Below, in pieces: positions 9,579-41,095 of a stretch of 53,919 bases of DNA. The notes under the pieces were generated by a model. The model made no database searches and was not told where the DNA came from. It saw only the letters and a program-made list of their open reading frames with translations. Origin of the DNA: Planctomycetaceae bacterium (GTDB lineage: Bacteria; Planctomycetota; Planctomycetia; Planctomycetales; Planctomycetaceae); assembly GCA_947476295.1 (NCBI GenBank), contig CANJQC010000019.1:1-53919 (forward strand), read 5' to 3'. Each line of letters begins with the position of its first letter. Position 1 is the first letter of the stretch. The position numbers were made by a program, and so were the translations under genes.

Positions 9579-9597
9579 CAACCGCCCCCGTTCTGTA

Positions 9598-12328: not shown

Positions 12329-13246
12329 CTAATTCGGAATGAAATTCCTGAGGAACGTGTGACTCTGGCGGAGCGATTTCAAGCGTTCATCTAGGCTGCC
12401 TTCGTAGGCGCGGTCTTCGACTTCCACACAGACGGGGCCGCGATAACCGCAATCCGTGAGCGTGGAGAAAAACTGGCCCCAGTTGACATCGCCCATGCCC
12501 GGCAGTTTCGGAGTGTGATACTTTGAGGGATGCGCCATGATGCCGACTTGATTCAGCCGATGTCGATCGATCCGGACGTCCTTGGCATGAATGTGAAACA
12601 GCTTGTCACTAAAATTACGCATCGGAGCCAGATAATCCATGTGTTGCCAGATCATATGCGACGGATCGTAGTTCAAGCCGAAGCAATCAGAATGAATGTC
12701 TGAAAACATACGCGTCCAGATCTCAGGCGTCGTCGCCAGATTCTTTCCGCCCGGCCATTCATCGGCACTGAACAGCATCGGGCAATTTTCAATTCCGATA
12801 CGAATTCCACGATCCTCAGCCAGATCAATGAGTGGTTTCCATGTTGTCAGGAAGCGAGGCCAGTTGTCATCGACAGACAGCGTCCAGTCGCGACCCACGA
12901 ACGTATTAACATGGGCCAGTCCCAGCCGATATGCCGCTTCGATGACCACATGCAGATGAGCGACCGCAGCGTCTGCTTCCGCTGAGTTCGGGCTGAGCGG
13001 ATTGGGATAGTACCCCAACGCACTGATCAGCACGCCGGTGGCGTCGGTTGTTTTTCGGATGTCAGACACCAGATGCTCAGTCATGTGCACGACATCAATG
13101 TGACTGACGCCCGCATAGCGCCGATCCGCCTTGCCAGCAGGCCAGCAGCAGACTTCAACGCAGTCATATCCAATTTCCGACGCAATCAGCAATGTGCGGT
13201 CGAATGTCTGTTCAGGAAGTATAGCACTTACAAATCCAAGCTGCAT
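12329..13246 (-). CDS. Sugar phosphate isomerase/epimerase family protein
   Basis: A 305-residue TIM-barrel protein of the xylose isomerase-like / AP endonuclease 2 superfamily. Recognisable elements are the first strand [16 protein letters not shown] with [12 protein letters not shown], the metal-ligand region [11 protein letters not shown] (Glu), the [14 protein letters not shown] strand and helix (Asp, His), [12 protein letters not shown] (His) and the last strand [12 protein letters not shown] (Glu). These positions bind a divalent metal in the family. The substrate cannot be told from sequence; members isomerise or epimerise sugars and inositol derivatives. No signal peptide. The gene has no sugar-catabolic neighbours. 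Confidence 0.88.
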
Positions 13247-21915: not shown

Positions 21916-22599
21916 TTACGACAGCAACTCCGGATAAATGCATCCGGCACCAATGACGCCACCGCCAAGGCTCTCGCAAATCTCGATCAGCGTTTCCCAC
22001 AGAGACAATGCGTAACCAGGATCCACCCATATCCGATACGAGGCAATCCCACCGATCGTGTCGGGTAGTATGCAGCAACTGATACCGGCGACGCGCGTAA
22101 AGACTGCCTGCCGGGGAATCCCATCCCGGAAATTAAGACCACACGTTTGCGAGAGGACTGCCAGCGCGCGTGATCCGGTCAGCAGAAACGTGGCTTCCTG
22201 GTGTTCGACCTGAAAGATCTGACCATGCGGCAACTTGAGTTGCCGGGCGATCGCCGACACGGATTCGTTGCGAATTCCGCTTTCCAGAAAGAACTCTGAC
22301 GAACCAAAGCGAACGATCAGGCCACCGTCAGCAAGCGGAAGTGATTCAAACATCATTTTCGGCACTTGCAGATTCGCATTCCGAAGCCAGAGTTCCGCGT
22401 CGCGTCCCTTCAGGCCGAATTTCCGGAGCCCGCTCATATCACAGATTCCCAGCAATTCCATCGTCGTCCGTTCGGCGGCGGCGGAATGAAAGCGAACCGC
22501 AAATGAACTTCCATCGATGACTTGAGGCTGCGCGCCATGAGCATCCAGCCAGTCCTGGATCGGACTTCGCTGAGTGGCAGTATCAGGGAGTTGCGTCAT
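21916..22599 (-). CDS. mgdD: N-methylglutamate dehydrogenase subunit D (SoxG-like)
   Basis: A 227-residue homologue of the gamma subunit of heterotetrameric sarcosine oxidase (SoxG). The family pattern is seen in ICDMSGLRKFGLKGRDAELWL near residue 55, the central GGLIVRFGSSEFFL and the C-terminal VDPGYALSLWETLIE. In sarcosine oxidase this small subunit packs against the alpha subunit's folate-binding domain and helps enclose the inner cavity. It is the last gene of the eight-gene N-methylglutamate cluster, separated from mgdC by 202 bp that contain dispersed repeats, a wider gap than elsewhere in the mgd block. The name MgdD rather than SoxG rests on the linked gmaS and mgsABC. Confidence 0.85.
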   Translation of the reverse strand: MTQLPDTATQRSPIQDWLDAHGAQPQVIDGSSFAVRFHSAAAERTTMELLGICDMSGLRKFGLKGRDAELWLRNANLQVPKMMFESLPLADGGLIVRFGSSEFFLESGIRNESVSAIARQLKLPHGQIFQVEHQEATFLLTGSRALAVLSQTCGLNFRDGIPRQAVFTRVAGISCCILPDTIGGIASYRIWVDPGYALSLWETLIEICESLGGGVIGAGCIYPELLS

Positions 22600-22665
22600 T
22601 ATGTTTCTTGGCTCTGCTTGAGTTCTTTTCGTGCCAAAATAAACCAGCGAATGACCCCCTCATCC

Positions 22666-22705
22666 GGCCTATCGGCCACCTTCTCCCCCTTTCAAGGGCG
22701 AGAAG
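22666..22705. repeat. Extragenic palindromic repeat between mgdC and mgdD
   Basis: Two adjacent hairpins: GGCC-TATC-GGCC (22666-22677) and CTTCTCCCCCTT...AAGGGCGAGAAG (22680-22705, one mismatch). The surrounding CCCCTCATCCGGCC...ACCTTCTCCCC is the layout of widespread bacterial extragenic repeats. As RNA on the minus strand it could act as a processing or partial termination signal between the two genes. Confidence 0.65.
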
Positions 22706-22737
22706 GGACCAGATCAACGCTGCAAACTATTGTCCGT

Positions 22738-22765
22738 AAATCACGTTACAGAAATCACGTTACAG
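22738..22765. repeat. 14-bp tandem duplication
   Basis: AAATCACGTTACAG occurs twice head to tail (22738-22751 and 22752-22765) in the gap between mgdC and mgdD. Confidence 0.8.
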
Positions 22766-22801
22766 AATTTCGTCGCCACCAGGTGGCAATGTCCAATGAG
22801 T

Positions 22802-25705
22802 TCATTTTTGCCGACTGCTTTGAGCATCATAGAACGGCAACGTTACCACATGTGCTGAAGTCCATGTGCCGTTATCCAGTCGGATTTTAACTCGTGTTCC
22901 AGGTTGGGCAAGGTCGGGCCGGACGAAGCCCATGGCAACAGGATGGCCCAGCGTCGAACGCGGGGCAATGCTTGTAATTCGCCCCACAATGTCCGATCCC
23001 GCGATGATCAGCTGGCATTCCTCCGGAAGTGGTCCGGTCGAGTGCTCCGGAAACTCGAGTCCGACAAGTCGCCGGGTCAGCGTTTTTCTGCGAATGATGT
23101 CAAGACTGCGCGATCCGACAAAAAACGGTTTGTCCTTCCCAATCGCCCACGCCACGTCGGCCTCATACGGATTGGTCAATGCGTCCGTGTCCTGACTGAC
23201 AATCAGGTGACCCTTTTCCAGACGCAGCAGCCGCTGTGCTTCCAGGCCAAATGGACGGATTTCGATGGATTCACCAGCCCGCATGAGCGACGTCCAGACA
23301 TGCAGTCCGTATGACACGGGTACATGAACTTCATAGCCCAGTTCGCCGACAAAACCAACCCGCATCACCGTGGCCGGCACACCGGCAACCATGCCCTCGC
23401 GGACGGCAAGGTAGGGGAATGCATCAGGAGACAAGTCGACGTCTGTCAATTGTTGCAGAACATCGCGCGAGTGTGGACCGGCGATATTCATCCCGGCCAG
23501 ATGTCCGGTCGCATTCATCAGCGTGACATTCATTCCCCAAATCATAGCCCACCGCTGCATCTCGCGATAGAATGCAGCTGCACCGCTGCTGGTTGCCGTG
23601 ACATAGAAACGATCGTCAGCGAGTCGCGCTATCACACCATCTTCGACGATGACGCCGCTTTCGTCGCAGGCCAGACCATAGCGAACCCGACCGACCGGCT
23701 GCTTGGCAAAACGCCCCGTATAGATTCGTTCGAGAAATTCAACGGCATCCGGACCGTTGACCCGAAGTTTCCCGAGAGTACTGACGTCGATCAGGCCAAC
23801 ATTATTTCGAACATTGACAGCTTCGGCAAGTATGCACTGGTCGCGCGTGCTGCCAGCGGCCTTGTAATACTCCGGTCGCAGCCAGACACCCGCATAGATC
23901 ATCTCGGCGCCAGCGCGTTCATGCCATGCATGGACCGGCGTCCGTCGCTGCGGATGGAATCGTCGACCGGCCAAATGGCTCAGCGGAACAGGCTGGTAAA
24001 ACGGGCGGGAAGTGGTCGTCCCGGTTTCGTTGATCGACTTGTTATTCAATTTTGCGAGAATCCGCACGGCGTTCACGTTGGACAGTTTTCCTTGGCTGGG
24101 TCCCATTCCGACCGTCGTGAAACGCTTGATCAGCTCGATGTTGTCGTAGCCTTCCTGATGTGCATTGCTGAAGTCTGCCAGATGCAGATCTTCATCGAGA
24201 TCGACAAAGTTCTTTTTCCCGGCATGGGAAAATATGGGATACGGATGGCTGGGCGGCGCTGCCTGATGTTTCGGTGCTTCCGGCAACTCGCCGTCAAATC
24301 GTCCCAGATAAGCGGCTGCAGCGAGTCCGGCACGATTTCCATCGTCGATCTGATCGCTAGGGTCGAATACGCCATTCACTCGTCCGGCCGCAAACAAGCC
24401 GTCAGGCATGTCGCGAGGCATGAGTTGTTCGACGTGATCGGCGTGGTGGAATCGTCCGCCCGCCTGGTAAATGAGTCCACCGTTCGGGGTCCAGCCGACG
24501 CTCATCACAATGCCGTCGCATTCGATGTACGTTTCCGACTGGCTGATCGGACGCCCTTCGTTGTCCAGTCGGCAGATCTTCGCTCCCCGGATGCGCTGGT
24601 TTCCATTCGAAGGCACCGCTTCAATGACGGTCTGTCCATTGCGGATAGATATACCGGCGGCGGCGACCCGTTGTGTCAGTTCCGTCGATTCCCCGCCATG
24701 CCGCAAATCAACCACGGCTGCCACAACTACACCAGCATCGTGCAGATCGAGCGCGACGCGATAACCGTCGCTGTTAGCCACGAGTACCACAGCTTGGTCG
24801 AGCGGTTTCACTGCATAGAGATGAATCAGCCGCTGGGCCGCTGATCCCAGCATCACGCCTGGGAGATCATTGTTCTGGAAGACCGCCGGTTGTTCGAAAC
24901 ATCCAGTGGCCACGAGCATTCCCTTCGTTCGCAGTTTTGTCAGACGATGGGCATCGACCAGCGCAACCCAGTTGTCTGCATACCAGCCAGCGGCCTGCGT
25001 GCCACAGCGAAGTTCGATGTTATGATGCTGCTCGACTTGTTCCCGCATTCTCGCCAGATGACCGTTGTGAGCAGTATCGCCATTCCATTGCCATCCAAGG
25101 CTGCCGCCTGGCCTCGGCTGTTCATCGACTAGGACGACATGCAAGCCCTGCTCCGCCGCAGCGATGGCGCCCGCCATTCCAGCCGGTCCGGCACCGACAA
25201 CCAGCAAATCACAGAACGCATAGTCTTTCGGTGACGGTACGCAATCGTTCGTCGGATGGATGTGACCGAGCCCGGCGACTTTCCGCATCTGCCCTTCATA
25301 GAACGGAAACAGCCAGCGCGGTGTATGGAAAGCCTTATAGTAGAAGCCGACCGGAAGAAAACGGCTGAACCATCCCATGATCCGCATGCGATCGCGTTCG
25401 AGACCGCCGATCGTATTGACCGAACGCACGTCGAGTCCCGGTTCGATCGGGAGCATGTCGCCGCGCATGTTAGTCCGACCGCCGTTTTCAACGATAACAT
25501 TTGCATCGTGCCCGGCGAGGCTGTAGACACCTCGTGGCCGGTGATACTTGAAGCTGCGACCGAGAAGCCGAACATCGCTCGCCCACAGGGCGGTCGAAAG
25601 CACGTCCCCGGCAAAACCGCGATAGCTCCGGCCCTCAAACCGAAACTCAACGGGCTGGCTGCGATCAATCCATTCACCTTCGCGTGGCGGTAATCGTCTA
25701 TCCAT
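22802..25705 (-). CDS. mgdC: N-methylglutamate dehydrogenase subunit C (SoxA-like)
   Basis: A 967-residue homologue of the sarcosine oxidase alpha subunit. From the N-terminus: a ferredoxin-like domain (VEFRFEGRSYRGFAGDVL, then GRSFKYHRPRG), an FAD/NAD(P)-binding region with the dinucleotide fingerprint LLVVGAGPAGMAGAIAAAE near residue 130, and from about residue 560 a C-terminal glycine-cleavage T-protein domain (GLIDVSTLGKLRVNGPDAVEFL) that in the family binds tetrahydrofolate and captures the one-carbon unit. The start at 25705 overlaps the end of mgdB by eight bases, giving translational coupling; a longer frame to 25864 would overlap mgdB in full and is rejected. Product expected: glutamate plus a C1 unit as formaldehyde or methylene-THF. 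Confidence 0.9.
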   Translation of the reverse strand: MDRRLPPREGEWIDRSQPVEFRFEGRSYRGFAGDVLSTALWASDVRLLGRSFKYHRPRGVYSLAGHDANVIVENGGRTNMRGDMLPIEPGLDVRSVNTIGGLERDRMRIMGWFSRFLPVGFYYKAFHTPRWLFPFYEGQMRKVAGLGHIHPTNDCVPSPKDYAFCDLLVVGAGPAGMAGAIAAAEQGLHVVLVDEQPRPGGSLGWQWNGDTAHNGHLARMREQVEQHHNIELRCGTQAAGWYADNWVALVDAHRLTKLRTKGMLVATGCFEQPAVFQNNDLPGVMLGSAAQRLIHLYAVKPLDQAVVLVANSDGYRVALDLHDAGVVVAAVVDLRHGGESTELTQRVAAAGISIRNGQTVIEAVPSNGNQRIRGAKICRLDNEGRPISQSETYIECDGIVMSVGWTPNGGLIYQAGGRFHHADHVEQLMPRDMPDGLFAAGRVNGVFDPSDQIDDGNRAGLAAAAYLGRFDGELPEAPKHQAAPPSHPYPIFSHAGKKNFVDLDEDLHLADFSNAHQEGYDNIELIKRFTTVGMGPSQGKLSNVNAVRILAKLNNKSINETGTTTSRPFYQPVPLSHLAGRRFHPQRRTPVHAWHERAGAEMIYAGVWLRPEYYKAAGSTRDQCILAEAVNVRNNVGLIDVSTLGKLRVNGPDAVEFLERIYTGRFAKQPVGRVRYGLACDESGVIVEDGVIARLADDRFYVTATSSGAAAFYREMQRWAMIWGMNVTLMNATGHLAGMNIAGPHSRDVLQQLTDVDLSPDAFPYLAVREGMVAGVPATVMRVGFVGELGYEVHVPVSYGLHVWTSLMRAGESIEIRPFGLEAQRLLRLEKGHLIVSQDTDALTNPYEADVAWAIGKDKPFFVGSRSLDIIRRKTLTRRLVGLEFPEHSTGPLPEECQLIIAGSDIVGRITSIAPRSTLGHPVAMGFVRPDLAQPGTRVKIRLDNGTWTSAHVVTLPFYDAQSSRQK

Positions 25706-25964
25706 CAATGTTCTCCGCATCGAACAGGTATGTCCGAAGAATCTCATCTGTCCGGTTGTCGCGTTGTGCAATGAACCATGTGCCGCTTGGCACATGATAC
25801 CACCATTCGCGTTTGACTCCGGGCTCGCCGAGGCGATTGAACACGTAATCGGCCCACTGGCCATCCGTTGCGGCCGTCGGATCGGGCATGGTCCGCACTT
25901 CGCCGCCGAAGTGAAACTCCTGGAGCGGACGAGGACCGTTAACCGGACAGTTCATGATTTTCAT
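25698..25964 (-). CDS. mgdB: N-methylglutamate dehydrogenase subunit B (SoxD-like)
   Basis: An 88-residue homologue of the sarcosine oxidase delta subunit. The family frame is clear: N-terminal MNCPVNGPRPLQEFHFGGEV, then WADYVFNR and EWWYHVPSGTWFIAQRDNRTDEI. The characterised SoxD subunit binds zinc through three cysteines and one histidine; here one cysteine (CP) and the histidine remain, while the positions of the others read Asn (VNG) and Ser (PSG), so the zinc site is probably lost. Two starts, nine bases apart, are possible (25964 or 25955). The gene begins seven bases after the mgdA stop and overlaps mgdC by eight bases. Confidence 0.88.
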   Translation of the reverse strand: MKIMNCPVNGPRPLQEFHFGGEVRTMPDPTAATDGQWADYVFNRLGEPGVKREWWYHVPSGTWFIAQRDNRTDEILRTYLFDAENIDG

Positions 25965-25970
25965 GGTGAA

Positions 25971-27215
25971 TTAATGTCCCACCGAGGCCGCGCCCTTTTC
26001 GCCAACCAGTTCAAACTCTGCGAATCGCGACAGATTAAACGACTCAATCAATTCGTGATTGCGATCTTGAGCCAGCGTATGAGCCATCGTCTTGCCACTG
26101 ACCGGAGTTGCCTTGAATCCCCATGTGCCCCAGCCGGCATCAATGTAGAAACCTTTGATCGGCGTGGTGCCCATGATCGGCGAAAAATCGGGCGTCATGT
26201 CGCATAGTCCCGCCCACTGACGCAGGACTTTGATGTCCCCGAGGCACGGGAACAAATCCAGCAGTCCGGCACACATGCCTTCCGCGAAGTCCAGCGTCGA
26301 TCGCATCGAAATCAGCTCGTACGGATCAAGCGATGCACCGGCGACCAGCTCCCCTCGCGACGACTGACTCACATACAGGTGCAGACTGGCCGACACAACG
26401 ATGTTGCTCAGCCACGGTTTCAGAGGCTCTGTCACCAACGCCTGCAATGGATGAATGACCAGCGGCGTTCGCAGCCCCACCATTTGCGTGACATTCGTCG
26501 TCCAGCCGGCGACCGCCGACAACACTTTGCGTGTCTTGATGAATCCTCGGTCGGTATGCACTCCCGCAACTGCACCGTCGCGAATCTCAATGTCGGTCAC
26601 CGTTGTCTGCTGATGGATTTCGACGCCGCGTTGATCCGCACCGCGAGCATAGCCCCAGGCGACCGCGTCGTGCCGGGCAATGGCTCCTGGTGGATGATAG
26701 AGGGCTCCATAAATGGGCGCCTGATGACCGCCTACAGTCAGATCGATTTCCGGGACAGTTTCTTTGATAAACTCCGGACTGACAACTCGGCTGTTGATTC
26801 CAAGGTGCTTGTTCACTTCAGCCCGCCAGCGCTGCGTTCGCAGCGACGCCGTTGAATGTGCGAGTGTGAAGTGGCCGCGTTCCGAATAAAACAGGTTAAG
26901 GTTCAGTTCCCGCGAGAGGTCCTGAAATAGCTCAACACTGCCCTGATAGAAACGGACACCTTCGGGTGTAAGATAGTTCGAGCGAATGATGGCCGTGTTG
27001 CGCCCCGTACCTCCGCCACCGATGTAGCCCTTTTCAACGACCGCAACGTTGGTGATGCCATGATCCTTCGCGAGGTAATACGCCGCCGCCAGACCGTGGC
27101 CTCCACCCCCAATGATCACCGCGTCGTATTCATCCTTCAGCCGGTCCGGCGCGCGAAACATGCGAGGTTCGGGATGCTTTTGGCTTAGAGCAAACTTGAG
27201 GAGTCGGTAGGGCAT
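25971..27215 (-). CDS. mgdA: N-methylglutamate dehydrogenase subunit A (SoxB-like)
   Basis: A 414-residue flavoprotein of the DAO family, the catalytic subunit type of heterotetrameric sarcosine oxidase (SoxB). The FAD-binding fingerprint is VIIGGGGHGLAAAYYLA (about 33-49), followed by GGGGTGRNTAIIRSNY. The block ARHDAVAWGYARGA with His182 resembles the region that carries the covalently attached FMN in sarcosine oxidase. The C-terminal block YIDAGWGTWGFKATPVSG is also typical. It oxidises the N-methyl group of the secondary amine, here expected to be N-methylglutamate. First gene of mgdABCD, 60 bases after gmaS. The long N-terminal extension before residue 19 is normal for SoxB. Confidence 0.9.
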   Translation of the reverse strand: MPYRLLKFALSQKHPEPRMFRAPDRLKDEYDAVIIGGGGHGLAAAYYLAKDHGITNVAVVEKGYIGGGGTGRNTAIIRSNYLTPEGVRFYQGSVELFQDLSRELNLNLFYSERGHFTLAHSTASLRTQRWRAEVNKHLGINSRVVSPEFIKETVPEIDLTVGGHQAPIYGALYHPPGAIARHDAVAWGYARGADQRGVEIHQQTTVTDIEIRDGAVAGVHTDRGFIKTRKVLSAVAGWTTNVTQMVGLRTPLVIHPLQALVTEPLKPWLSNIVVSASLHLYVSQSSRGELVAGASLDPYELISMRSTLDFAEGMCAGLLDLFPCLGDIKVLRQWAGLCDMTPDFSPIMGTTPIKGFYIDAGWGTWGFKATPVSGKTMAHTLAQDRNHELIESFNLSRFAEFELVGEKGAASVGH

Positions 27216-27275
27216 CAGCAGTCAAGATTCGAAATTCGAGAATGAAATCGTTAAGGCACGCGGCTCAGCAACAGA

Positions 27276-28634
27276 TCAAAAGTAAGTCAGGTATTTGGAG
27301 ATCTCCCACTCCGTTACTTGACCTGAATACGCTTGCCATTCATTTGTCTTCAACCTGATGAACTCTTCGGCGATGACGCCAAGTGAGCCTTTGATGACTT
27401 CGTCATTACGAAGTTCATCGATGGCTTCCAAAAGTGATTGCGGCAGGATTTTGATGCCCCGTTCACGGACTTCCGCCAAAGTTCGTTCGTACATATTGCC
27501 GAGATTCGGATCGCCGGGATCGATTTTATTCTCGATCCCATCCATGCCTGCCTCAACGTATGCGGCTAGGACAAGGTACGGATTGCAGCCTGCCGACACC
27601 GTGCGGTCTTCGAAATGGCCGGGGCCAGCCGTGCGAATCATCTGCGTACGGTTATTGTCGCCGTAGGTGATAAAGGCGGGTGTCCAGGTAAAACCGCTCC
27701 GAGTTGAATTGAGGCCCACGCCCAGTTTCAGTCTCTTGTAGCAATTCACCGTGGGACTGGTCACGCCACACAACGCACGCGCGTGACGCAGCACGCCCCC
27801 GACAAAATGATATCCCGCCTGGGAACAACCAAGGCCACGCGGGTCAGCAGGATCTGCAAAAGCTCCCCGACCACTCTTGGCGTCTGCCAGATGGAAGTGA
27901 ATGTGCAGACCACTTCCCGTGCGATCTCCAAATGGTTTCGCCATATGTGTGGCGATCGCGCCATACTTCTTCGCAATCTGTGACGTCGCCATCCTGAAGA
28001 ACGTAATGCGGTCAGCGGTTGTCAGCGCGTCCTGATAGTCGAAGTTGACCTCGAACTGACCGTTCGCGTCTTCATGATCGGCCTGGTAGACACCCCAGCC
28101 CAGCTGATTGAGTGAGCTTGTCAGTTCCTGCAAATACCCCATCGCAGGAGCCATCGAGCGAAAGTCATAACACGGTTTTGGGAGCGAGTCCACCTTGTCC
28201 GGATCCCATGGGGCGATTGTGCCGTCTGCGTTGCGGGTGACCAAAAAATGCTCCGGCTCCATCCCTACGTTAAAGACATATCCCTTATCGCGAACGGCAG
28301 ACAGAATGCGTTTCAGATTCGTTCGCGGGCAATACGGGTGTGGCTCGCCGTCAACAAACAGGTCGCACGCAAAACGAGCCGTGTTGGGCATCCACGGCAG
28401 CGGCGTATAGCTGTCTAGGTCGATGCGGGCCAGCATATCGTGTGAATGCGGCCCCTGCCCGACGCCCTCGACAGCAGCCCCCGCAAAGCCCGCTCCGTCG
28501 TCGAGTACGCTGTCGAATGACGACACCGGCACCATCTTGACCTTCGCCGATCCATGAACATCCACAAACTGGGCAAGGATGAATTCAATGCCATCCTCTT
28601 TCATCTGTTCCCGAATTTTTTCTCGATCACTCAT
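27276..28634 (-). CDS. gmaS: Gamma-glutamylmethylamide synthetase (GmaS)
   Basis: A 452-residue glutamine synthetase-fold ligase (GlnT/GS type III-like group). It joins methylamine to the gamma-carboxyl of glutamate using ATP. The beta-grasp N-domain starts IEFILAQFVDVHGSAKVKMV; catalytic-domain blocks are GVYQADHEDANGQFEVNF, GSGLHIHFHLAD and NRTQMIRTAGPGHFEDRT (arginines that bind glutamate and phosphate). Position between mgsABC and mgdABCD is what separates it from a plain glutamine synthetase. The ATG at 28634 is chosen because AGGA lies nine bases before it; an ATG at 28643 is immediately adjacent to that site. GS-type regulation by adenylylation is not expected, since the NLYDLP-like tyrosine loop was not found. 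Confidence 0.88.
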   Translation of the reverse strand: MSDREKIREQMKEDGIEFILAQFVDVHGSAKVKMVPVSSFDSVLDDGAGFAGAAVEGVGQGPHSHDMLARIDLDSYTPLPWMPNTARFACDLFVDGEPHPYCPRTNLKRILSAVRDKGYVFNVGMEPEHFLVTRNADGTIAPWDPDKVDSLPKPCYDFRSMAPAMGYLQELTSSLNQLGWGVYQADHEDANGQFEVNFDYQDALTTADRITFFRMATSQIAKKYGAIATHMAKPFGDRTGSGLHIHFHLADAKSGRGAFADPADPRGLGCSQAGYHFVGGVLRHARALCGVTSPTVNCYKRLKLGVGLNSTRSGFTWTPAFITYGDNNRTQMIRTAGPGHFEDRTVSAGCNPYLVLAAYVEAGMDGIENKIDPGDPNLGNMYERTLAEVRERGIKILPQSLLEAIDELRNDEVIKGSLGVIAEEFIRLKTNEWQAYSGQVTEWEISKYLTYF

Positions 28635-28730
28635 TCTGCTCATTCCTGAAGCGAACCAATTTTGCTGACACTAACGTTTTCTATGTGTGAGTGCTTTCGC
28701 CCAACCAATTTGCGTGGAAAAAAGATGTGG

Positions 28731-28792
28731 AACACTAATCTGCACTAATCTTCGCTAATCCGGATTAGTGAAGATTAGCGCAGATTAGTGTT
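28731..28792. repeat. 62-bp near-perfect palindrome upstream of gmaS
   Basis: Two 31-base arms (28731-28761 and 28762-28792) meet without a loop and match at 29 of 31 positions. Each arm is itself built from three CTAATC units spaced 10-12 bases apart. It occupies the 358-bp gap between mgsC and gmaS, which has no gene. It could be a dispersed extragenic palindrome, or a hairpin that ends or attenuates mgsABC transcripts; there is no T-run. Confidence 0.85.
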
Positions 28793-28876
28793 CTAAATTC
28801 CTGAATAAAACCTTCGCACATAGAATCCGTTAGAGTCAGCAATTTTGGATTCAAATTTAGAGGCCCTGACAAGAAT

Positions 28877-28956
28877 GGGACAGGCACCCGTGCCTGCCTG
28901 TTTTTCCAGCGTTTTCAGAATTCCCGCAGGAGCCAGCCCCGGTTTTGTCAGGCGTT
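28877..28956. repeat. Dispersed repeat, copy 1 (downstream of mgsC)
   Basis: Contains GGGACAGGCACCC (28877-28889) and CCGGTTTTGTCAGGCGTT (28939-28956). The same two blocks occur in reverse complement at 31941-31984, on the other side of mgsABC. In this copy about 36 extra bases lie between the blocks. Confidence 0.8.
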
Positions 28957-28992
28957 CTACGTGTTTCGGATTTCGAAATTCGGATTTTCGAC

Positions 28993-30333
28993 TTACAACT
29001 TCCCCGGGATCCAGCTCGTGCCGGCCAGGGGCACCCTGGCCATCGCCGCAGCCTCGACAGTCAGCGCGACCAAGTCCTCTCTCTCAAGATGATGAACATT
29101 CGATTTGCCGCAGGCGCGAGCCAGAGTTGTGAGCTCCATATTGAGCACCTGCAGGTAGTTTTTCAACCGCCGGGCACCCACCTCGGGCGTTAGTCGGCGT
29201 TCGAGGATTGAGTCCTGCGTCGTGATCCCCACGGGACACTGTCCGGTATGGCAATGGTGACAAAATCCAGGGGCTGTGCCGAGTTTCGCGTAATCCTGAG
29301 TGGCATCGACATCGCGACCGTTCTCGAAATACGAATCGTGATTGCAACCAAGAGCGACCAGCACACCCTGCCCAATGGACACTGCGTCTGCTCCCAGCGC
29401 CAGCGCCTTGGCCACGTCAGCGCCCGTTCGAATCCCACCTGAAATAATCAACTGTACTTCGCCCACGACGTTCATATCTTCGAGGGCTTCCATCGCGAGC
29501 GGCAGCGCCGCGAGAGTGGGGATTCCAGTGTTCTCGATGAAAACCTGCTGCGTGGCCGCCGTTCCACCCTGCATTCCGTCGATGACGACAACATCGGCGC
29601 CCGCTTTGACAGCCAATTTCACATCTTCACGCACGCGAGTTGCCCCCAGCTTTACGTAAATCGGCACTTGCCAGTCCGTGATCTCACGCAATTCCTCAAG
29701 CTTGATCTTGAGGTCGTCCGGGCCGGTCCAGTCGGGATGACGGCAAGCCGAACGCTGGTCGATCCCTTCCGGGAGAGTTCGCATTTTGGCGACGCGAGGG
29801 CTGACCTTCTGACCGAGCAACATTCCTCCTCCGCCTGGCTTTGCCCCCTGCCCGATGACCATTTCAATCGCATCGGCCTTGCGCAGATCGTCCGGATTAA
29901 ATCCATATCGTGATGGCAGGCACTGGTAGACCAGCGTTTTGGACGACTGCCGTTCCTCCGGAGTCATTCCACCGTCGCCGGTCGTGGTCGATGTACCTAC
30001 TTCCGTAGCCGCTCGTCCGAGAGCTTCTTTCACATTCGCGGACAATGATCCAAAACTCATGCCGGCGATCGTGATTGGAATTTCCAGTACGACGGGTTTC
30101 TTCGCGTACCGCGTTCCGAGAACCGTCCTAGAAATGCATTTTTCGCGATAACCCTCGAGCGGATAGCGCGAGGCCGACGCGGTGAGGAATACCAAATCGT
30201 CGAATGACGGCACGGCACGCTTGGCACCCATTCCCCGGATTTCGTACAGACCGCACTCGGCGGCTTCGCGAATGTACCGCATCGCGCGACGATCGAGGGA
30301 AGCACTTTCTTCACGATGAATCGGCTTGGTCAA
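28993..30333 (-). CDS. mgsC: N-methylglutamate synthase subunit C (glutamate synthase FMN domain)
   Basis: A 446-residue protein equivalent to the central FMN-binding domain of glutamate synthase. Blocks seen: ITIAGMSFGSLSANVKEALG, GTSTTTGDGGM, GQGAKPGGGGMLLG, KAGADVVVIDGMQGGTAAT, ISGGIRTGADVAKALALGADAV-type phosphate-binding strand, and CHHCHTGQCPVGIT, whose cysteines match the Fe-S region of the family. In the N-methylglutamate pathway this subunit transfers the methylamine unit to form N-methylglutamate. The start is a TTG at 30333: CAGGAGT lies seven bases ahead, one base separates it from the mgsB stop, and the upstream in-frame extension would lie inside mgsB. GlxD of rhizobia is the same family, but the operon points to MgsC. 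Confidence 0.9.
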   Translation of the reverse strand: MTKPIHREESASLDRRAMRYIREAAECGLYEIRGMGAKRAVPSFDDLVFLTASASRYPLEGYREKCISRTVLGTRYAKKPVVLEIPITIAGMSFGSLSANVKEALGRAATEVGTSTTTGDGGMTPEERQSSKTLVYQCLPSRYGFNPDDLRKADAIEMVIGQGAKPGGGGMLLGQKVSPRVAKMRTLPEGIDQRSACRHPDWTGPDDLKIKLEELREITDWQVPIYVKLGATRVREDVKLAVKAGADVVVIDGMQGGTAATQQVFIENTGIPTLAALPLAMEALEDMNVVGEVQLIISGGIRTGADVAKALALGADAVSIGQGVLVALGCNHDSYFENGRDVDATQDYAKLGTAPGFCHHCHTGQCPVGITTQDSILERRLTPEVGARRLKNYLQVLNMELTTLARACGKSNVHHLEREDLVALTVEAAAMARVPLAGTSWIPGKL

Positions 30334-30334
30334 T

Positions 30335-31027
30335 TCAGTACTCCTGATGGGCTTCTGCGTTCCAGTGGTAAAGACTGCGAGCCGAAGCGACCCGCTTGAA
30401 TTCCCGCGAGTCGCAGTCGATCCCGGAGGCCGCGAGCAGGCCTGACACTCGTTCCAGATCCGCAGACTGCATCTCCTCTTCCCGAGCGTCGGCCCCCAGA
30501 CTGTGAATCCGGCCGCGGACGTAGATCGTCGCCTCGTACAGGGAGTCACCTAGGTTTGGTCCCGCATCGCCACACACGACGAGCGTCCCAGCCTGCGCCA
30601 TGAAGGCAGAAAAATGTCCAACGCTGCCGCCCACAACGATGTCGCAGCCTTTCATCGAAATGCCGCACCGCGACGATGCGTCGCCTTCGATGACGACCAG
30701 CCCGCCATGACCCGAAGCTCCCGCCGACTCGGACGCATGCCCCTTCACACGCACACTCCCGGACATGATGTTTTCCGCCACACTCCAGCCGACATTGCCA
30801 TGCACCGTGACGGCAGCAAGCTTGTTCATGCCCGCGATGAAGTATCCAGCGTGACCCAGAATATCGACCGCAACGTCGCAGTCTAGGCCGACGGCGATGC
30901 TGTGATTACCGTCGGGATTAAGAATCTCCACGCGCTCAATTCCGCTGCCCGGAAGCTCGTGGTGCAGGTACTGATTGAGATCGCGGACACGCAGTCTTGC
31001 CAGATCAAATTGCTTCACAGTGTCCAT
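30335..31027 (-). CDS. mgsB: N-methylglutamate synthase subunit B (GXGXG domain)
   Basis: A 230-residue protein homologous to the C-terminal GXGXG right-handed beta-helix of glutamate synthase. The repeated glycine pattern is visible in VTVHGNVGWSVAENIMSGSVRVKGHAS and GLVVIEGDASSRCGISMKGCDIVVGGSVGH. In glutamate synthase this domain is structural; it links and orients the amidotransferase and FMN domains. Here the three parts are separate genes, as in known mgs operons. It overlaps mgsA by 13 bases, and mgsC starts two bases after its end, so the three are translationally coupled. Confidence 0.9.
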   Translation of the reverse strand: MDTVKQFDLARLRVRDLNQYLHHELPGSGIERVEILNPDGNHSIAVGLDCDVAVDILGHAGYFIAGMNKLAAVTVHGNVGWSVAENIMSGSVRVKGHASESAGASGHGGLVVIEGDASSRCGISMKGCDIVVGGSVGHFSAFMAQAGTLVVCGDAGPNLGDSLYEATIYVRGRIHSLGADAREEEMQSADLERVSGLLAASGIDCDSREFKRVASARSLYHWNAEAHQEY

Positions 31028-31911
31028 GAGTAAATCTGTTCCGGGGCGGGTTCAAAGACGTTGGCCGTTTTGATCCGGGGAAGATGAGCGAGCGAACGAA
31101 ATTCGGACGCGACAGCGACGTAGTCATCGGTCTCAGCGACAACGGCCGGCTTACATGCAAACGCATCACGCACCAAGACCATCCGATCCGCAGTCGCCAT
31201 CAGGAACGTGAAAAAACCGTCCAGCTCGCTGAATGATGTTGCGATGGCCTGCTCCAGTGTGTCGCCTTCCCGCATCCGCCATTCCAAGAATCGGCAACCG
31301 GCCTCTGTGTCGTTGTCTGTCTCGAACGCAATGCCTCGGCTTTCCAGCTTGCGACGGATACTGTACGGATTCGAAAGCGACCCGTTATGCACAAGACAGA
31401 AATCCCGGCCTGCGGTGTAGGGATGCGCATGAGCCGGCGAAACTGCGGACTCCGTCGCCATCCGCGTGTGCCCGACAGCGTGACTCCCGTTGAGTTCTGT
31501 GAAGTGATATCGCCTCGCAATCTCATCAGGCGGGCCTTCATCCTTGAATATTTCGATCGCACTTCCAACCGAAACCAAGTTCACGTCGGAATGCGATTCC
31601 CGGAGCCAGGCTTTGAATCGATCGACCTGAATCGATGAGATCTCCATTGCATGGTTTTCAATGGAACGAATCGATCCCTCATTTCCCGTTTCGTGAATGA
31701 ATCGTTCGTGAAAAGACTGCCAGTCGAAACCTGGACTCTCTGCGAACAGGCTGTAGCGGGTTTGTCCCGGCCCCAGCAGTTCGTGATACACAGCCAGCCC
31801 TGCGGAATCCGGACCGCGCGTGCCCATACACACGAGCATCGGCGTCACCAGTTGTCCTAGGCTCGCCCGCGTTTCACTCTTCTTCAGCAGCAGTCCAACA
31901 ATCCCGCACAC
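31015..31911 (-). CDS. mgsA: N-methylglutamate synthase subunit A (class II amidotransferase)
   Basis: A 298-residue class II (PurF-type) glutamine amidotransferase domain. It starts MCGIVGLLL, so removal of Met1 exposes the catalytic Cys2. Other family blocks: MGTRGPDSAGLAVYHE, AVGHTRMATESAVSPAHAHPY and DFCLVHNGSLSNPYSIRR with ESRGIAFETDNDTE. In the pathway it would split gamma-glutamylmethylamide and channel methylamine to MgsC. First gene of the eight-gene cluster; the promoter should lie in the 578 bp upstream, where I found no clear hexamers or -24/-12 site. Confidence 0.9.
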   Translation of the reverse strand: MCGIVGLLLKKSETRASLGQLVTPMLVCMGTRGPDSAGLAVYHELLGPGQTRYSLFAESPGFDWQSFHERFIHETGNEGSIRSIENHAMEISSIQVDRFKAWLRESHSDVNLVSVGSAIEIFKDEGPPDEIARRYHFTELNGSHAVGHTRMATESAVSPAHAHPYTAGRDFCLVHNGSLSNPYSIRRKLESRGIAFETDNDTEAGCRFLEWRMREGDTLEQAIATSFSELDGFFTFLMATADRMVLVRDAFACKPAVVAETDDYVAVASEFRSLAHLPRIKTANVFEPAPEQIYSWTL

Positions 31912-31940: not shown

Positions 31941-31984
31941 AACGCCTGACAAAACCGGAACTGGCAGACAAGGGTGCCTGTCCC
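31941..31984. repeat. Dispersed repeat, copy 2 (upstream of mgsA), inverted
   Basis: AACGCCTGACAAAACCGG (31941-31958) and GGGTGCCTGTCCC (31972-31984) are perfect reverse complements of the two blocks at 28939-28956 and 28877-28889. In this compact copy the blocks are 13 bases apart. Together the copies bracket mgsABC as long inverted repeats. Confidence 0.8.
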
Positions 31985-32489
31985 GCTTTCGTTGCCTTTA
32001 TACCTGCGAATTGCGATGCACGACAACCATCCCAGCCTTTTGACGTGCGATTCCTCAGTTTTGAATGGGATGACATCCCGCATTTTCTTCTAAACGCTCA
32101 CTCTTCGCCGCAGACAGGAATCAAGCAGTACAGTCAGGACAGTTCAGGACAGTATTGAAGTACGTGTCTGTAAATTCGGACGTGTGATTGAATCTCATCC
32201 CGCGTTCCTATTACTCAACGCCATTTCCGGACGCGCCCGAGCTAACGTCTGGAAAATCGATTTTCGACGCGGGTTCAATTTACCTCCATCCTCCGTAGCA
32301 TGACTTCCCGACATGCATTTTGGGGGCACATGGTTATGTCTTTGTCTTCAGCGTGTTTTGCTTCCCTTGTAATCATCTGTTATTTTCCACGCTTTGGTCA
32401 GCACAGGTCTTTTGCTGTCGAAGAATGTTCCGGGAAGAGGGCGGAGTTTCTGTCATTTCTCGCAGATCGTGGTTTCGGGGAGTTTCTGT
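31985..32489. other. Divergent intergenic region between mgsA and the fusion gene
   Basis: 505 bases with no supported gene. A tandem duplication TCAGGACAGT x2 is at 32134-32153. The end holds GGGGAG (about 32477-32482), the ribosome binding site of the gene at 32490. It should contain the promoters of the mgs-gmaS-mgd cluster and of the rightward gene, but none is convincing by eye. Confidence 0.4.
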
Positions 32490-35400
32490 ATGCGACCGCA
32501 TATTTGCGCGATGATCATTATCTGGGCTGGATGCCTGAGCGTCCAGACCTCTGCGAATCATACATTAGCCGCAGAAACAGAGTTGATCACTCTGACTGAT
32601 CTGCAGCTGGGGTCTGAATGGATTCAACATCGAGTTGCTGTGCCGGAAGGTGAGCTGTCGTGTTTTCAGCGACCCGGTGAAGGGCCAACACTACTGCTGA
32701 TTCCGGGGACGTTTTCTGACAGCAGAATCTATGCACTCACAGTACGTCAGCTGGATCCAAAACTTAATCTGATCATCCTCGAAAACCGCGGTCTGGGGGG
32801 CAGCTGGCCGCCTCCAGAGAAGTCTACCATCGAAAGCTGTGCTGAAGATGCGTTCGCAGTAATGGACGCACTGAAAGTTGACCAGTTCTACGCATCTGGT
32901 CACAGTCTGGGCGGAATGATTGCGCTCGAACTTGGCCAACGAAAGCCGGATCGCGTGCAGGGTATCGTTTCCATCGAAGGCTGGACGAATGCCAGCGCTG
33001 CCGAATTGGCATTTCAAGGGGACATGAAGTCCACGCTCTCACCGGCTCAACGGGACATACTGTCTGCATATCGAAAGGATACTTCGAACATCCAGGCAGA
33101 CGTCGTCATTTTTGGCGGGACTCCGGGCGGAATCGCTGCCGCACTGGCGGCTGCGCGCCAAGGACGCAGCGTTGTGGTGGTGGAGCCACAGAATCATCTG
33201 GGCGGAATGATGGCCAGCGGTCTGGGAAAGAGCGACATTGAGAACCAGGAAAAAATTGGCGGCATCTTTCTGGAGTTCACAAAACGCATTTATGACCACT
33301 ACGCAGCAACATACGGAAGTGATCATGAAAATGTGCGACTGTGCCAGAATGGCTACTACTACGAACCTTCGGTGGCGGAGCAGATGCTAAAGGAGATGCT
33401 CGACGAAACGCCCGGAATCACAGTGCTGAAAGGCTGGCGCTTGACAGAGGCCATATTGAAAGGGCATCAGGTCGTCGGTATCGAAGTGACTTCCCGCAAA
33501 TCGAACGAGAAACGGAAACTCACTGGGCAAATTTTGATTGATGCGACATACGAGGGTGACCTGTACGCGGCGGCGGGTGCGGGTTTTCGTATGGGCCGCG
33601 AATCACGCGACGAATTCAAGGAGCCACATGCCGGAGTCGTCTATTTCGACTACCAGACTCAGCAGTTTCTTCCTGGATCCACCGGGGCAGGCGACGACCG
33701 ACTGCCAGCCTATACGTTTCGGCTGTGCCTGACCACTGATCCCATGAACGCGGTACCGATGACGGCTCCTCCGACGGGTTACGATCGCAAAAACTATCTG
33801 GGGTATTTTGATGACCTGAGTGCGGGCCGACTGGCAGCTCCGAAATCGTACAAGCCTGGCCGCGGTTTTAATCCGGCGCATTTCGACACGCTGGTCCGGG
33901 CTTTGTCGGTCACTCCTTTGCCCAATCACAAGACCGATGTCAACATCAATCCCCGGCCACTGGGGTTCCCGTTCGCCGAAATGAACCGCGGTTATCTTGA
34001 AGCCGATGATGCCTTGCGTGGGCAGATTCGTGAGCGGCACAGGGAAATGGCACTGGGACTTTTGTGGTTCCTCCAGAATGACGCACAGGTCCCGGAAGCT
34101 CATCGTCAATTGGCGCGCGAACTGTCCCTGCCCAAAGATGAGTTTTCCGACAGCGATCATTTTCCGTTTCAGCTGTATGTCCGCGAAGGCCGTCGTCTAA
34201 AAGGGTTGTACACGCTGACTGAGCAAGACGTGACCGGCGCGACAGACCAGCAGACTGTTCATCATCAGTCCGACAGCATTGCCGTTGGGGAGTTTCCGAT
34301 CGACAGTTTTCCGTGTCGAAAGAGACAGCCAGGTGATTCGAAAGTCTTGGAAGGTTATCTGGGAATGCTCGACCACATTACGAGGCCGTACGAGATTCCT
34401 TATGGCATCATGATTCCCGAGAAAATTGACGGTGTGATCGTACCGGTGGCAGCCAGCACAACTCATGTGGCGTATTCCAGTATTCGCATGGAGCCCACAT
34501 GGATGGCACTGGGACAGGCTGCTGGTACCGCAGCCGATCTGGCGATTCGACATCGCGTTGCGCCTCGTGCTGTTCCAATTGCCGAACTTCAGGAAGCTCT
34601 GATTCAGCAGGGGCAGGTCCTAAGACATCAAGAGAATTTGCACGCCCCGCCGATGCTCTCCGGGACGTGGGTTCCTGAAGATTCTCGTTTAATTGATTTC
34701 ACGAAACTGCCGCATATTCCTGCTGAGCATTCGGTTGTCAGCGACGTCCGAGCGGCCGGAAATGACCCAACAAAGGTGGATAAGTCTCAGGGCGGCGTGA
34801 ATCAGCACAACTATCTGATCTTCCATCAGAATCAGTTCTGGATCATGTGGAGTGACGGGCCCGGAGTGGAGGACCGAGTGGGGCAGCGAGTCCGTTTTGC
34901 GACCAGCCCAGACGGATTGACGTGGTCAAAACCAGAATTTTTGACCCCTGAGCCACCAGGTTCGGGACCGGATTCTGAGTTTTACGGGAAGCGGACTGCT
35001 AAAGGATCTCGCTGGATCGCACGAGGCTTCTGGAAACGTGGCGAAGATCTCTTAGCGCTGGCTTCCCTCGATGAAGCAGCCGAGTTCTTTGGCCCAGGGC
35101 TAACACTGCGAGCTTTTCGCCTCGATGAATCGTCGAGCGAATGGCAGGATCAGGGTGTCGTGTTTGAAAACAGTATTAATAATTTCCCACCGGAACTTCT
35201 GCCTGACGGTCAGTGGATGATGTCACGGCGAACTCATGATTACAAAAAAACTGGAGTTCATTTCCTGATCGGCGGCCTTGAATCGATCAACGCCTGGAAA
35301 TCATTTCCCGTTCTGGGTTCCAGCAGTGAACTGGCTGCCGAAGAACCGTTATGGTGGGTGCTTCCGGACAATCGATTGCTAGCACTGTTTCGAGACAACC

Positions 35401-35777
35401 GACGCAGTGGATTTGTGTATCGATCCTTTTCACTGGACAATGGTCGCACATGGAGTTCACCTGAGCCGACAAATTTCCCCGACGCCACTTCCAAACTGCA
35501 TGGACTGCGACTGCGCGATGGTCGATTTGTTTTGGTTTCAAATGCCAATCCTGCCAAACGAGATCCACTGACAATCGCCGTCAGTAACGATGGTGTGACT
35601 TTTTCTCAGATGGGGTATCTGGTGGGCGAACGACACGTCGACTACCCTCATGTGATGGAACATGACGGGTCTTTGTTCGTCGCCTTCGCAGGAGGCAAAC
35701 AAACGGTGGAGGTGCTTCGCATCTGCATCGATGACATGAACCGCACATTAAACGACGCGCAGCCTGTGCCTCGGTGA
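32490..35777 (+). CDS. Secreted fusion: alpha/beta-hydrolase, FAD oxidoreductase, sialidase-like
   Basis: A 1095-residue three-part protein. Residues 1-28 are a signal peptide (MIIIWAGCLSV core). Residues about 35-200 are the first half of an alpha/beta-hydrolase: oxyanion region LLLIPGTF, NRGLGGS and nucleophile elbow GHSLGG (Ser139). The fold stops after the elbow's next strand, without lid or catalytic His. From about 203 an FAD-dependent oxidoreductase of the PF12831 type follows (ADVVIFGGTPGGIAAALAAA, then NHLGGMMASGLG; DATYEGDLYAAAG). From about 720 to the end is a sialidase/BNR-like propeller with Asp-box-like TSPDGLTWSKP and SLDNGRTWSSP. ATG 32490 follows GGGGAG; an upstream frame adds only unlikely residues. 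The substrate is unknown; polysaccharide processing is a guess. Confidence 0.85.
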   Translation: MRPHICAMIIIWAGCLSVQTSANHTLAAETELITLTDLQLGSEWIQHRVAVPEGELSCFQRPGEGPTLLLIPGTFSDSRIYALTVRQLDPKLNLIILENRGLGGSWPPPEKSTIESCAEDAFAVMDALKVDQFYASGHSLGGMIALELGQRKPDRVQGIVSIEGWTNASAAELAFQGDMKSTLSPAQRDILSAYRKDTSNIQADVVIFGGTPGGIAAALAAARQGRSVVVVEPQNHLGGMMASGLGKSDIENQEKIGGIFLEFTKRIYDHYAATYGSDHENVRLCQNGYYYEPSVAEQMLKEMLDETPGITVLKGWRLTEAILKGHQVVGIEVTSRKSNEKRKLTGQILIDATYEGDLYAAAGAGFRMGRESRDEFKEPHAGVVYFDYQTQQFLPGSTGAGDDRLPAYTFRLCLTTDPMNAVPMTAPPTGYDRKNYLGYFDDLSAGRLAAPKSYKPGRGFNPAHFDTLVRALSVTPLPNHKTDVNINPRPLGFPFAEMNRGYLEADDALRGQIRERHREMALGLLWFLQNDAQVPEAHRQLARELSLPKDEFSDSDHFPFQLYVREGRRLKGLYTLTEQDVTGATDQQTVHHQSDSIAVGEFPIDSFPCRKRQPGDSKVLEGYLGMLDHITRPYEIPYGIMIPEKIDGVIVPVAASTTHVAYSSIRMEPTWMALGQAAGTAADLAIRHRVAPRAVPIAELQEALIQQGQVLRHQENLHAPPMLSGTWVPEDSRLIDFTKLPHIPAEHSVVSDVRAAGNDPTKVDKSQGGVNQHNYLIFHQNQFWIMWSDGPGVEDRVGQRVRFATSPDGLTWSKPEFLTPEPPGSGPDSEFYGKRTAKGSRWIARGFWKRGEDLLALASLDEAAEFFGPGLTLRAFRLDESSSEWQDQGVVFENSINNFPPELLPDGQWMMSRRTHDYKKTGVHFLIGGLESINAWKSFPVLGSSSELAAEEPLWWVLPDNRLLALFRDNRRSGFVYRSFSLDNGRTWSSPEPTNFPDATSKLHGLRLRDGRFVLVSNANPAKRDPLTIAVSNDGVTFSQMGYLVGERHVDYPHVMEHDGSLFVAFAGGKQTVEVLRICIDDMNRTLNDAQPVPR

Positions 35778-40987: not shown

Positions 40988-41003
40988 TGGCACGTAAGTT
41001 GCA
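40988..41003 (+). promoter_or_regulatory. Sigma-54 (-24/-12) promoter of activator gene
   Basis: TGGCACG-TAAG-TTGCA matches the RpoN consensus TGGCACG-N4-TTGC(A/T) at every position, with the required ten bases between GG and GC. The predicted start of transcription is near 41015, leaving an ~80-base leader before the ATG at 41096. The downstream gene is itself a sigma-54 activator, so auto-activation is likely. Confidence 0.85.
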
Positions 41004-41095
41004 AAGCAGGAATGCTGCATCCGCCTCAATATGTGTTTGATCGTTAGTGCTCAACTTTTCCGAGTTGTCAGATCTTTGTGAAGAAGGTGATTCGC

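Follow-up and report, generated by a model that had tools for sequence, protein, structure and literature searches.

Can a planctomycete oxidise methylamine by way of N-methylglutamate, or do the genes that suggest so serve another substrate? The N-methylglutamate (NMG) pathway is known mostly from proteobacteria. The question is raised by contig CANJQC010000019.1 of the Planctomycetaceae bacterium assembly GCA_947476295.1, of which positions 1 to 53,919 were analysed (53,919 nucleotides; the window). Eight open frames in the order mgsABC-gmaS-mgdABCD run on its minus strand from 31911 to 21916. A sequence-only reading had claimed the full eight-gene set in this order, with each subunit individually recognisable. 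Both claims hold, as all frames are present on the minus strand and every one of the eight subunits was matched in profile searches, MgdD weakly (PF01571, 38.1 bits). The cluster very probably encodes the NMG pathway for indirect methylamine oxidation. What the analysis shows is the identity and order of the genes, the conservation of catalytic residues and the phylogeny, together with strong evidence that the cluster is resident in the host; the pathway is real and probably functional in this planctomycete. Profile scores and the recurrence of the gene set exclude a chance origin of the cluster. The features of the locus are:

31015 to 31911, minus strand: mgsA (GlxB-like), class II glutamine-amidotransferase subunit of N-methylglutamate synthase; GTG start, Cys2
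30335 to 31027, minus strand: mgsB (GlxC-like), GXGXG subunit of N-methylglutamate synthase
28993 to 30333, minus strand: mgsC (GlxD-like), flavin mononucleotide (FMN) glutamate-synthase-domain subunit with CxxCxxxxC; probable TTG start, 446 aa
28725 to 28798, no strand: palindromic repeat between mgsC and gmaS; core of an element resembling miniature inverted-repeat transposable elements, outer arms to 28656 and 28848
27276 to 28643, minus strand: gmaS (glnT), gamma-glutamylmethylamide synthetase, 455 aa; identified by TIGR03105, PDB match, residues and tree
25971 to 27215, minus strand: mgdA, SoxB-like flavin subunit of N-methylglutamate dehydrogenase
25698 to 25964, minus strand: mgdB, SoxD-like small subunit
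22802 to 25720, minus strand: mgdC, SoxA-like subunit with nucleotide-binding and folate-binding (GCV_T) domains; start at 25720 or 25705
21916 to 22599, minus strand: mgdD, divergent SoxG-like/GCV_T subunit

Substrate, direction, channelling, downstream fate and physiological role are proposed here from knowledge of the pathway. GmaS would join methylamine to glutamate with adenosine triphosphate (ATP), giving gamma-glutamylmethylamide. MgsA would free the methylamine, and MgsABC would pass it to the FMN subunit MgsC to yield NMG. MgdABCD would oxidise NMG to glutamate, with the methyl carbon leaving as methylene-tetrahydrofolate (methylene-H4F) or formaldehyde, and the methylamine nitrogen would enter the glutamate/ammonium pool.

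Identity of the ligase

GmaS, a type III ligase, scored 545.2 bits against TIGR03105 (cut-off 469.6), and its best PDB match was the glutamate-methylamine ligase 9qur (423.7 bits). In the same search Rhodovulum GmaS (7cql) reached 325.2 bits, compared with 250.8 bits for the best glutamine synthetase. Residue positions were mapped from the part of PMC7948447 that describes the Rhodovulum enzyme (RhGmaS). Nineteen of its 21 named functional residues are identical in the window GmaS, among them the complete set of seven methylamine-pocket residues; Lys30', Tyr147, Gln175, Asp177, Glu179, Glu186, Asn188 and Arg312, which cover pocket and catalysis, are identical without exception. The host also encodes an ordinary GlnA, which differs from RhGmaS at five of the seven pocket positions.

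Phylogeny agrees with these matches. In the GmaS tree (87 of 89 rows; L096 and L099 duplicate L004 and L063 and were dropped), a split with 100/100 support sets 59 rows on the GmaS side apart from 28 others, host GlnA among them, and both solved glutamate-methylamine ligases fall on the side of the window GmaS, away from glutamine synthetases. This phylogeny was a check put forward by the sequence-only reading, and GmaS grouped as that reading expected. The window protein belongs to a 37-row group (100/98) separate from the groups of both solved GmaS. This group is mainly Planctomycetota, with rows from Latescibacterota, Gemmatimonadota, Spirochaetota and Chloroflexota and one row titled Verrucomicrobia.

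A ligase in a separate lineage, in which we know the activity of no member, could act on another primary amine such as ethylamine or isopropylamine, and the whole set would then degrade that amine. Glutamine-synthetase-like enzymes for organic amines do exist; NpaA1, with a motif common to GmaS, acts on naphthylamine and anilines (PMC11335346, in the part consulted). However, all seven methylamine-pocket residues are kept in the window GmaS, and the neighbouring genes of the ligase are mgsABC and mgdABCD, which are known to make and to consume NMG, respectively. Such a change of substrate is unlikely, and methylamine is the far likelier substrate.

Dehydrogenase, synthase and residence in the host

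The mgd subunits are related to heterotetrameric sarcosine oxidase, and none of the three with NCBIfam matches reaches the cut-off of its sox family. MgdA scored 471.3 bits against TIGR01373 (soxB; cut-off 529.45), MgdC 836.2 bits against TIGR01372 (soxA; cut-off 1164), and MgdB 58.9 bits against TIGR01374 (cut-off 116.5) and 94 bits against PF04267 (SoxD). MgdD matches GCV_T (PF01571) at the weak score given above, and solved SoxG matches it at E 0.93 only; where mgdD is detected in the fetched loci, it comes after mgdC, as in the window. In MgdA, His182, which we take to be the covalent-flavin position, is kept in 41/41 aligned proteins. The zinc ligands of SoxD are presumably Cys6, Cys9, a His and a Cys, and window MgdB retains Cys6 and the His and lacks the other two, so that the four-ligand site of the SoxD-like subunit of heterotetrameric sarcosine oxidase is incomplete. 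The same two ligands are missing from MgdB of the Paraburkholderia, Acinetobacter and Rhizobium CCGE531 sets. MgdB of the Paracoccus aminophilus NMG set also lacks cysteines at those positions, so the zinc site is not diagnostic on its own.

The MgdA tree has 42 rows, with the very distant L132 and L133 left out; same-locus repeats, out-of-length proteins and proteins with stops (e.g., the truncated Acinetobacter MgdA, L082) were left out of the trees. Window MgdA groups with Paraburkholderia plasmid MgdA (25 rows, 98/97), which sits in complete mgdABCD-gmaS-mgsABC sets (L086, L107). This group is apart from the sarcosine-oxidase group (5 rows, 97/94), made up of solved SoxB, L087 and L114 from betaine/creatine-type contexts, and L088 and L110, which lack gmaS. 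The MgdC tree (34 rows, Shimodaira-Hasegawa approximate likelihood-ratio support only) agrees, placing window MgdC with NMG sets rather than sarcosine oxidases. The sequence-only reading had named a grouping of MgdC with sarcosine oxidases of betaine catabolism as a ground for rejection, and the tree came out in favour of the NMG pathway instead.

If the mgd genes were a heterotetrameric sarcosine-oxidase operon serving to break down betaine or creatine, next to an unrelated glutamine-synthetase-like gene, this would account for the homology of the mgd subunits to SoxBDAG and for the best NCBIfam names of three of them, which are sox families below cut-off. It would leave unexplained why MgdA and MgdC group with gmaS-linked sets, and why mgsABC, gmaS and mgdABC occur together in 23 loci besides the window (fetched by similarity to GmaS or MgdA, and not a random sample). 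Among nine larger flanking proteins scanned (6295 to 35774) there is no glyA, serine deaminase, purU or folD product, whereas the sarcosine-oxidase context L087 has all four genes and L114 has glyA and serine deaminase. An operon of this kind is quite improbable, and the earlier argument against a plain sarcosine oxidase operon stands.

N-methylglutamate synthase is represented by three subunits. MgsA has a glutamine-amidotransferase domain (PF13522, 67 bits), and mgsA begins GTG-TGC, which puts the class II nucleophile cysteine in place straight after the start; this N-terminal Cys2 is kept in 40/40 aligned MgsA. MgsB has the GXGXG domain (PF01493, 40.9 bits), and the six solved chains that match it are formylmethanofuran dehydrogenase subunits. 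MgsC carries the glutamate-synthase FMN domain (PF01645, 321.9 bits). The CxxCxxxxC motif is present in 28/44 MgsC proteins and absent from 16 (L012, L013, L020, L022-L025, L027, L029, L032, L081-L085, L108), with a single switch of state on a quick MgsC tree. The two MgsC types, with and without the motif, are new here, with no literature search made on them. The planctomycete locus L012 and Latescibacterota combine window-type GmaS and MgdA with cysteine-free MgsC, which suggests that modules have been exchanged between sets.

Two of the three motif cysteines align with those of solved glutamate synthases, and some relatives have mgsABC-gmaS without mgd; both would suit intact genes that serve mainly an ammonia/glutamate route, with GmaS using ammonia and MgsABC acting as a small glutamate synthase. 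At five of the seven pocket sites, however, the window ligase has GmaS-type rather than glutamine-synthetase-type residues, and the host already has its ordinary GlnA, which makes this route very unlikely in place of methylamine use.

The host genome (G000 in the genome set; same family as G266) comprises 5.99 Mb in 252 contigs and is 98.97% complete. Nested inverted repeats fill part of the gap between mgsC and gmaS, and their core gives 61 matches on 25 host contigs (up to one mismatch; several per element, three in this gap; core pattern only), with 0 matches for the reversed control in the host genome. Dispersal through the host genome of a repeat that lies inside the cluster argues strongly against contamination or binning error and gives strong support for the cluster being resident. 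That the contig is a contaminant in the bin is scarcely credible: MgdA has no ortholog in any of 17 other host-genus genomes (the best match has 25% identity; 10 of these genomes reach 90% completeness or more and do not exceed 5% contamination), but the cluster repeat is dispersed over 25 host contigs and the nearest GmaS, MgdA, MgdC and MgsC among the rows compared are planctomycete. Imperfect inverted repeats at 28877-28956 and 31941-31984 flank mgsABC, and their core pattern (up to two mismatches) occurs in the host genome at these two places only.

Several observations weigh against assignment to the NMG pathway. Two RhGmaS ATP contacts are changed in the window GmaS (Trp189 to Phe, Ser239 to His), and the protein is 46% identical to Paraburkholderia GmaS. 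The scores of MgdA and MgdC under the sox cut-offs fit a distinct family and are not proof of an NMG dehydrogenase. A third group, next to the sarcosine oxidases, holds the NMG dehydrogenases of alphaproteobacteria, so that MgdA and MgdC of proteobacterial NMG sets fall in two tree places and NMG dehydrogenases are not one clade. The 19 kb read of the Rhizobium set L109 contain no gmaS; its MgdA branches basal to the window group, and its MgdC is nested in that group next to Acinetobacter. Because of this division and the placement of L109, tree position alone does not prove the dehydrogenase substrate. Finally, related planctomycetes keep mgsABC-gmaS without an MgdA ortholog, so part of the set may be used otherwise.

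Distribution, modularity and carbon fate

The gene set is patchy among planctomycetes. TIGR03105 is over cut-off in 12/392 planctomycete genomes, in 5/28 genomes of the host family, and in 1/14 control genomes. MgdA was searched in the 12 GmaS-positive planctomycete genomes, G034 and the 17 others of the host genus. Orthologs were found in 6 of the 12 (G000, G181, G266, G188, G130, G061), a lower bound, since completeness is 61-72% in three of the remaining six genomes, and in 3 of the 5 GmaS-positive genomes of the host family. One genome without a detected MgdA, G296, carries gmaS on a short contig with an mgdD-like gene next to it.

Gene order also varies. At least seven genes stand in window order in L005, L006, L008, L009, L012, L014 and L095, all named Planctomycetota or the host family, and also in metagenome-assembled genomes of Latescibacterota, Gemmatimonadota and Spirochaetota. 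L095 belongs to G181, a single-contig genome of the host family with all eight genes in this order. Besides mgsABC-gmaS-mgdABC(D), the arrangements mgdABCD-gmaS-mgsABC and mgsABC-mgdBC(D)A-gmaS were seen, and in two more (L017, L083) the halves of the set are divergent; tblastn often misses mgdD because its sequence has diverged too far. In L031, gmaS-mgdABCD stands without any mgs gene in the preceding 8.2 kb. A xylose-isomerase-like TIM-barrel gene lies between gmaS and mgdA at L005:11468-12358 (Pfam match), and L008:11399-12289 is a frame of the same length at the same place. A link between the L005 gene and the TIM-barrel gene of the window (12332-13246) was rejected (18% identity, E 0.20). 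L008 also carries an ammonium transporter gene between mgsC and gmaS (8359-9771).

Some planctomycetes pair mgs-gmaS with a monomeric oxidase, or with nothing, instead of mgdABCD, which is new here. In G238 (same genus as G181), mgsABC-gmaS is followed by a CDF-transporter gene, which in G181 comes after mgdD, and the CDF-transporter place in G350 is taken by an equally long frame (353 aa) (L094, L095 and L098 compared); no MgdA ortholog was found in G238 or G350. At L019:2986-4125 and L021:5482-6621, the gene after gmaS belongs to the monomeric N-methyltryptophan/sarcosine oxidase family (418 and 425 bits; cut-off 257). The L021 oxidase is with mgsABC-gmaS, and that of L019 with mgsC-gmaS at a contig edge. 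These two oxidases are 88% identical to each other and 43-47% identical to other family members, which lie away from mgs-gmaS in 5/5 genomes searched. They are possible single-gene N-methylglutamate oxidases; a literature search returned no paper on 'methylglutamate oxidase'. We offer tentatively, as a rather doubtful extension, that the planctomycete pathway is built of interchangeable modules, in which a separate GmaS and a cysteine-bearing MgsABC are combined with mgdABCD, a monomeric amino-acid oxidase, or no dehydrogenase. MgsABC might then take electrons as a true reductive N-methylglutamate synthase, and in some species NMG might serve as a final product or as a reserve.

Planctomycetes carry tetrahydromethanopterin (H4MPT) enzymes that lack a settled role, and the host has Fae (two copies) and Mch, through which formaldehyde could be oxidised. 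Work on Methyloversatilis universalis predicted methylene-H4F as the product (PMC5023235, in the part consulted), and free formaldehyde has also been considered (PMC4543880, likewise in part). For assimilation by the RuMP cycle, the host gave one match, an HxlA-like (hexulose-phosphate-synthase-like) gene (L149; G000:C137:13346-13960) that scored 137.4 bits, well below the cut-off of 200. The likeliest use, with weak support, is nitrogen and energy, not growth on methylamine as sole carbon. Fae occurs in 5 of the 6 MgdA-bearing genomes (all but G188) versus 45 of the other 386, a comparison confounded by kinship. The earlier suggestion that methylamine could feed planctomycete H4MPT enzymes in general is not supported, because Fae (28/28 in the host family, 50/392 in the phylum) is far commoner than GmaS (5/28 and 12/392). 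Methylamine is thus not the general reason for these enzymes; it would be a concrete, testable one-carbon substrate for a few planctomycetes and not a phylum-wide answer.

Some structural details of the locus remain. The mgdC frame as listed from 25864 overlaps mgdB; 25720 or 25705 is the probable start of mgdC, and the TTG at 30333 that of mgsC. The locus likely forms two transcription units, because about 350 bp containing the repeat element part mgsC from gmaS. Sigma-54 promoters of mgsA and gmaS were rejected, as the pattern (up to two mismatches) matched 27 times in the window versus 32.4 expected, with no match just upstream of either gene. An exact match lies at 40988-41003, about 75 bp before frame 41078-42556. 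Frame 32394-35777 joins an alpha/beta-hydrolase, a flavin-adenine-dinucleotide-dependent oxidoreductase and a BNR-repeat domain, an odd mix.

Comparison with known systems

No report of the NMG pathway in Planctomycetota was found among the titles and abstract openings listed, a search that left subscription papers largely outside and so does not prove absence. The consulted parts of PMC8262859 and PMC7065363 mention planctomycetes only in other connections. The full pathway has already been reported outside Proteobacteria, in three Binatota genomes (PMC8262859, in part), and the same source cites metagenomic signs of methylotrophy, including methylamine oxidation, in phyla that include Gemmatimonadetes and Chloroflexi. 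As far as these searches show, the pathway itself is known and its occurrence in the phylum Planctomycetota is new; it comes there with a distinct GmaS lineage and in modular variants. In the sea, methylamine commonly serves as a nitrogen source, and the bacteria that consume it are traced by the marker gene gmaS (PMC7948447, in part). Surveys built on proteobacterial gmaS may miss users, because a well-supported GmaS lineage occurs in Planctomycetota, Latescibacterota and Gemmatimonadota.

Sarcosine oxidase SoxBDAG (PDB 1vrq, 2gag) has subunits homologous to MgdA, MgdB and MgdC, and barely matches MgdD. It differs from the window set in forming a separate clade and in the two of four zinc ligands (presumed positions) that window MgdB lacks. 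Unlike the window, the sarcosine-oxidase stretches L087, L088 and L114 have no gmaS or mgsABC annotated. The glxBCD-glnT (mgsABC-gmaS) clusters match the mgsABC-gmaS part of the window and lack dehydrogenase genes. Among planctomycetes, G238 and G350 likewise have mgsABC-gmaS without mgd, and L021 has it with a monomeric oxidase (on the L019 contig, mgsC-gmaS only).

Alphaproteobacterial NMG sets (Paracoccus aminophilus pAMI6, Aminobacter sp. MSH1) have the same predicted functions as the window, and Aminobacter sp. MSH1 has the same gene order. Identity to the window is 38-39% for GmaS and 41-44% for MgdA. MgsC of Aminobacter, Shinella and Azospirillum lacks the cysteine motif, unlike that of the window, and alphaproteobacterial MgdA is nearer to sarcosine oxidases than window MgdA is.

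We take Methyloversatilis universalis FAM5 to be the experimentally studied relative of the Paraburkholderia-type sets; no FAM5 sequence was compared with the window. In FAM5, methylamine induces the pathway genes, and mgsC and mgdD mutants lose growth on methylamine (PMC5023235, in part). The Paraburkholderia plasmid sets (L086, L107) have the same eight genes as the window, with MgdA 70%, MgsC 80%, MgdC 53% and GmaS 46% identical. They differ in order (mgdABCD-gmaS-mgsABC versus mgsABC-gmaS-mgdABCD in the window) and in GmaS, which in the window belongs to a separate clade. The two are alike in lacking two MgdB cysteines and in carrying the MgsC cysteine motif.

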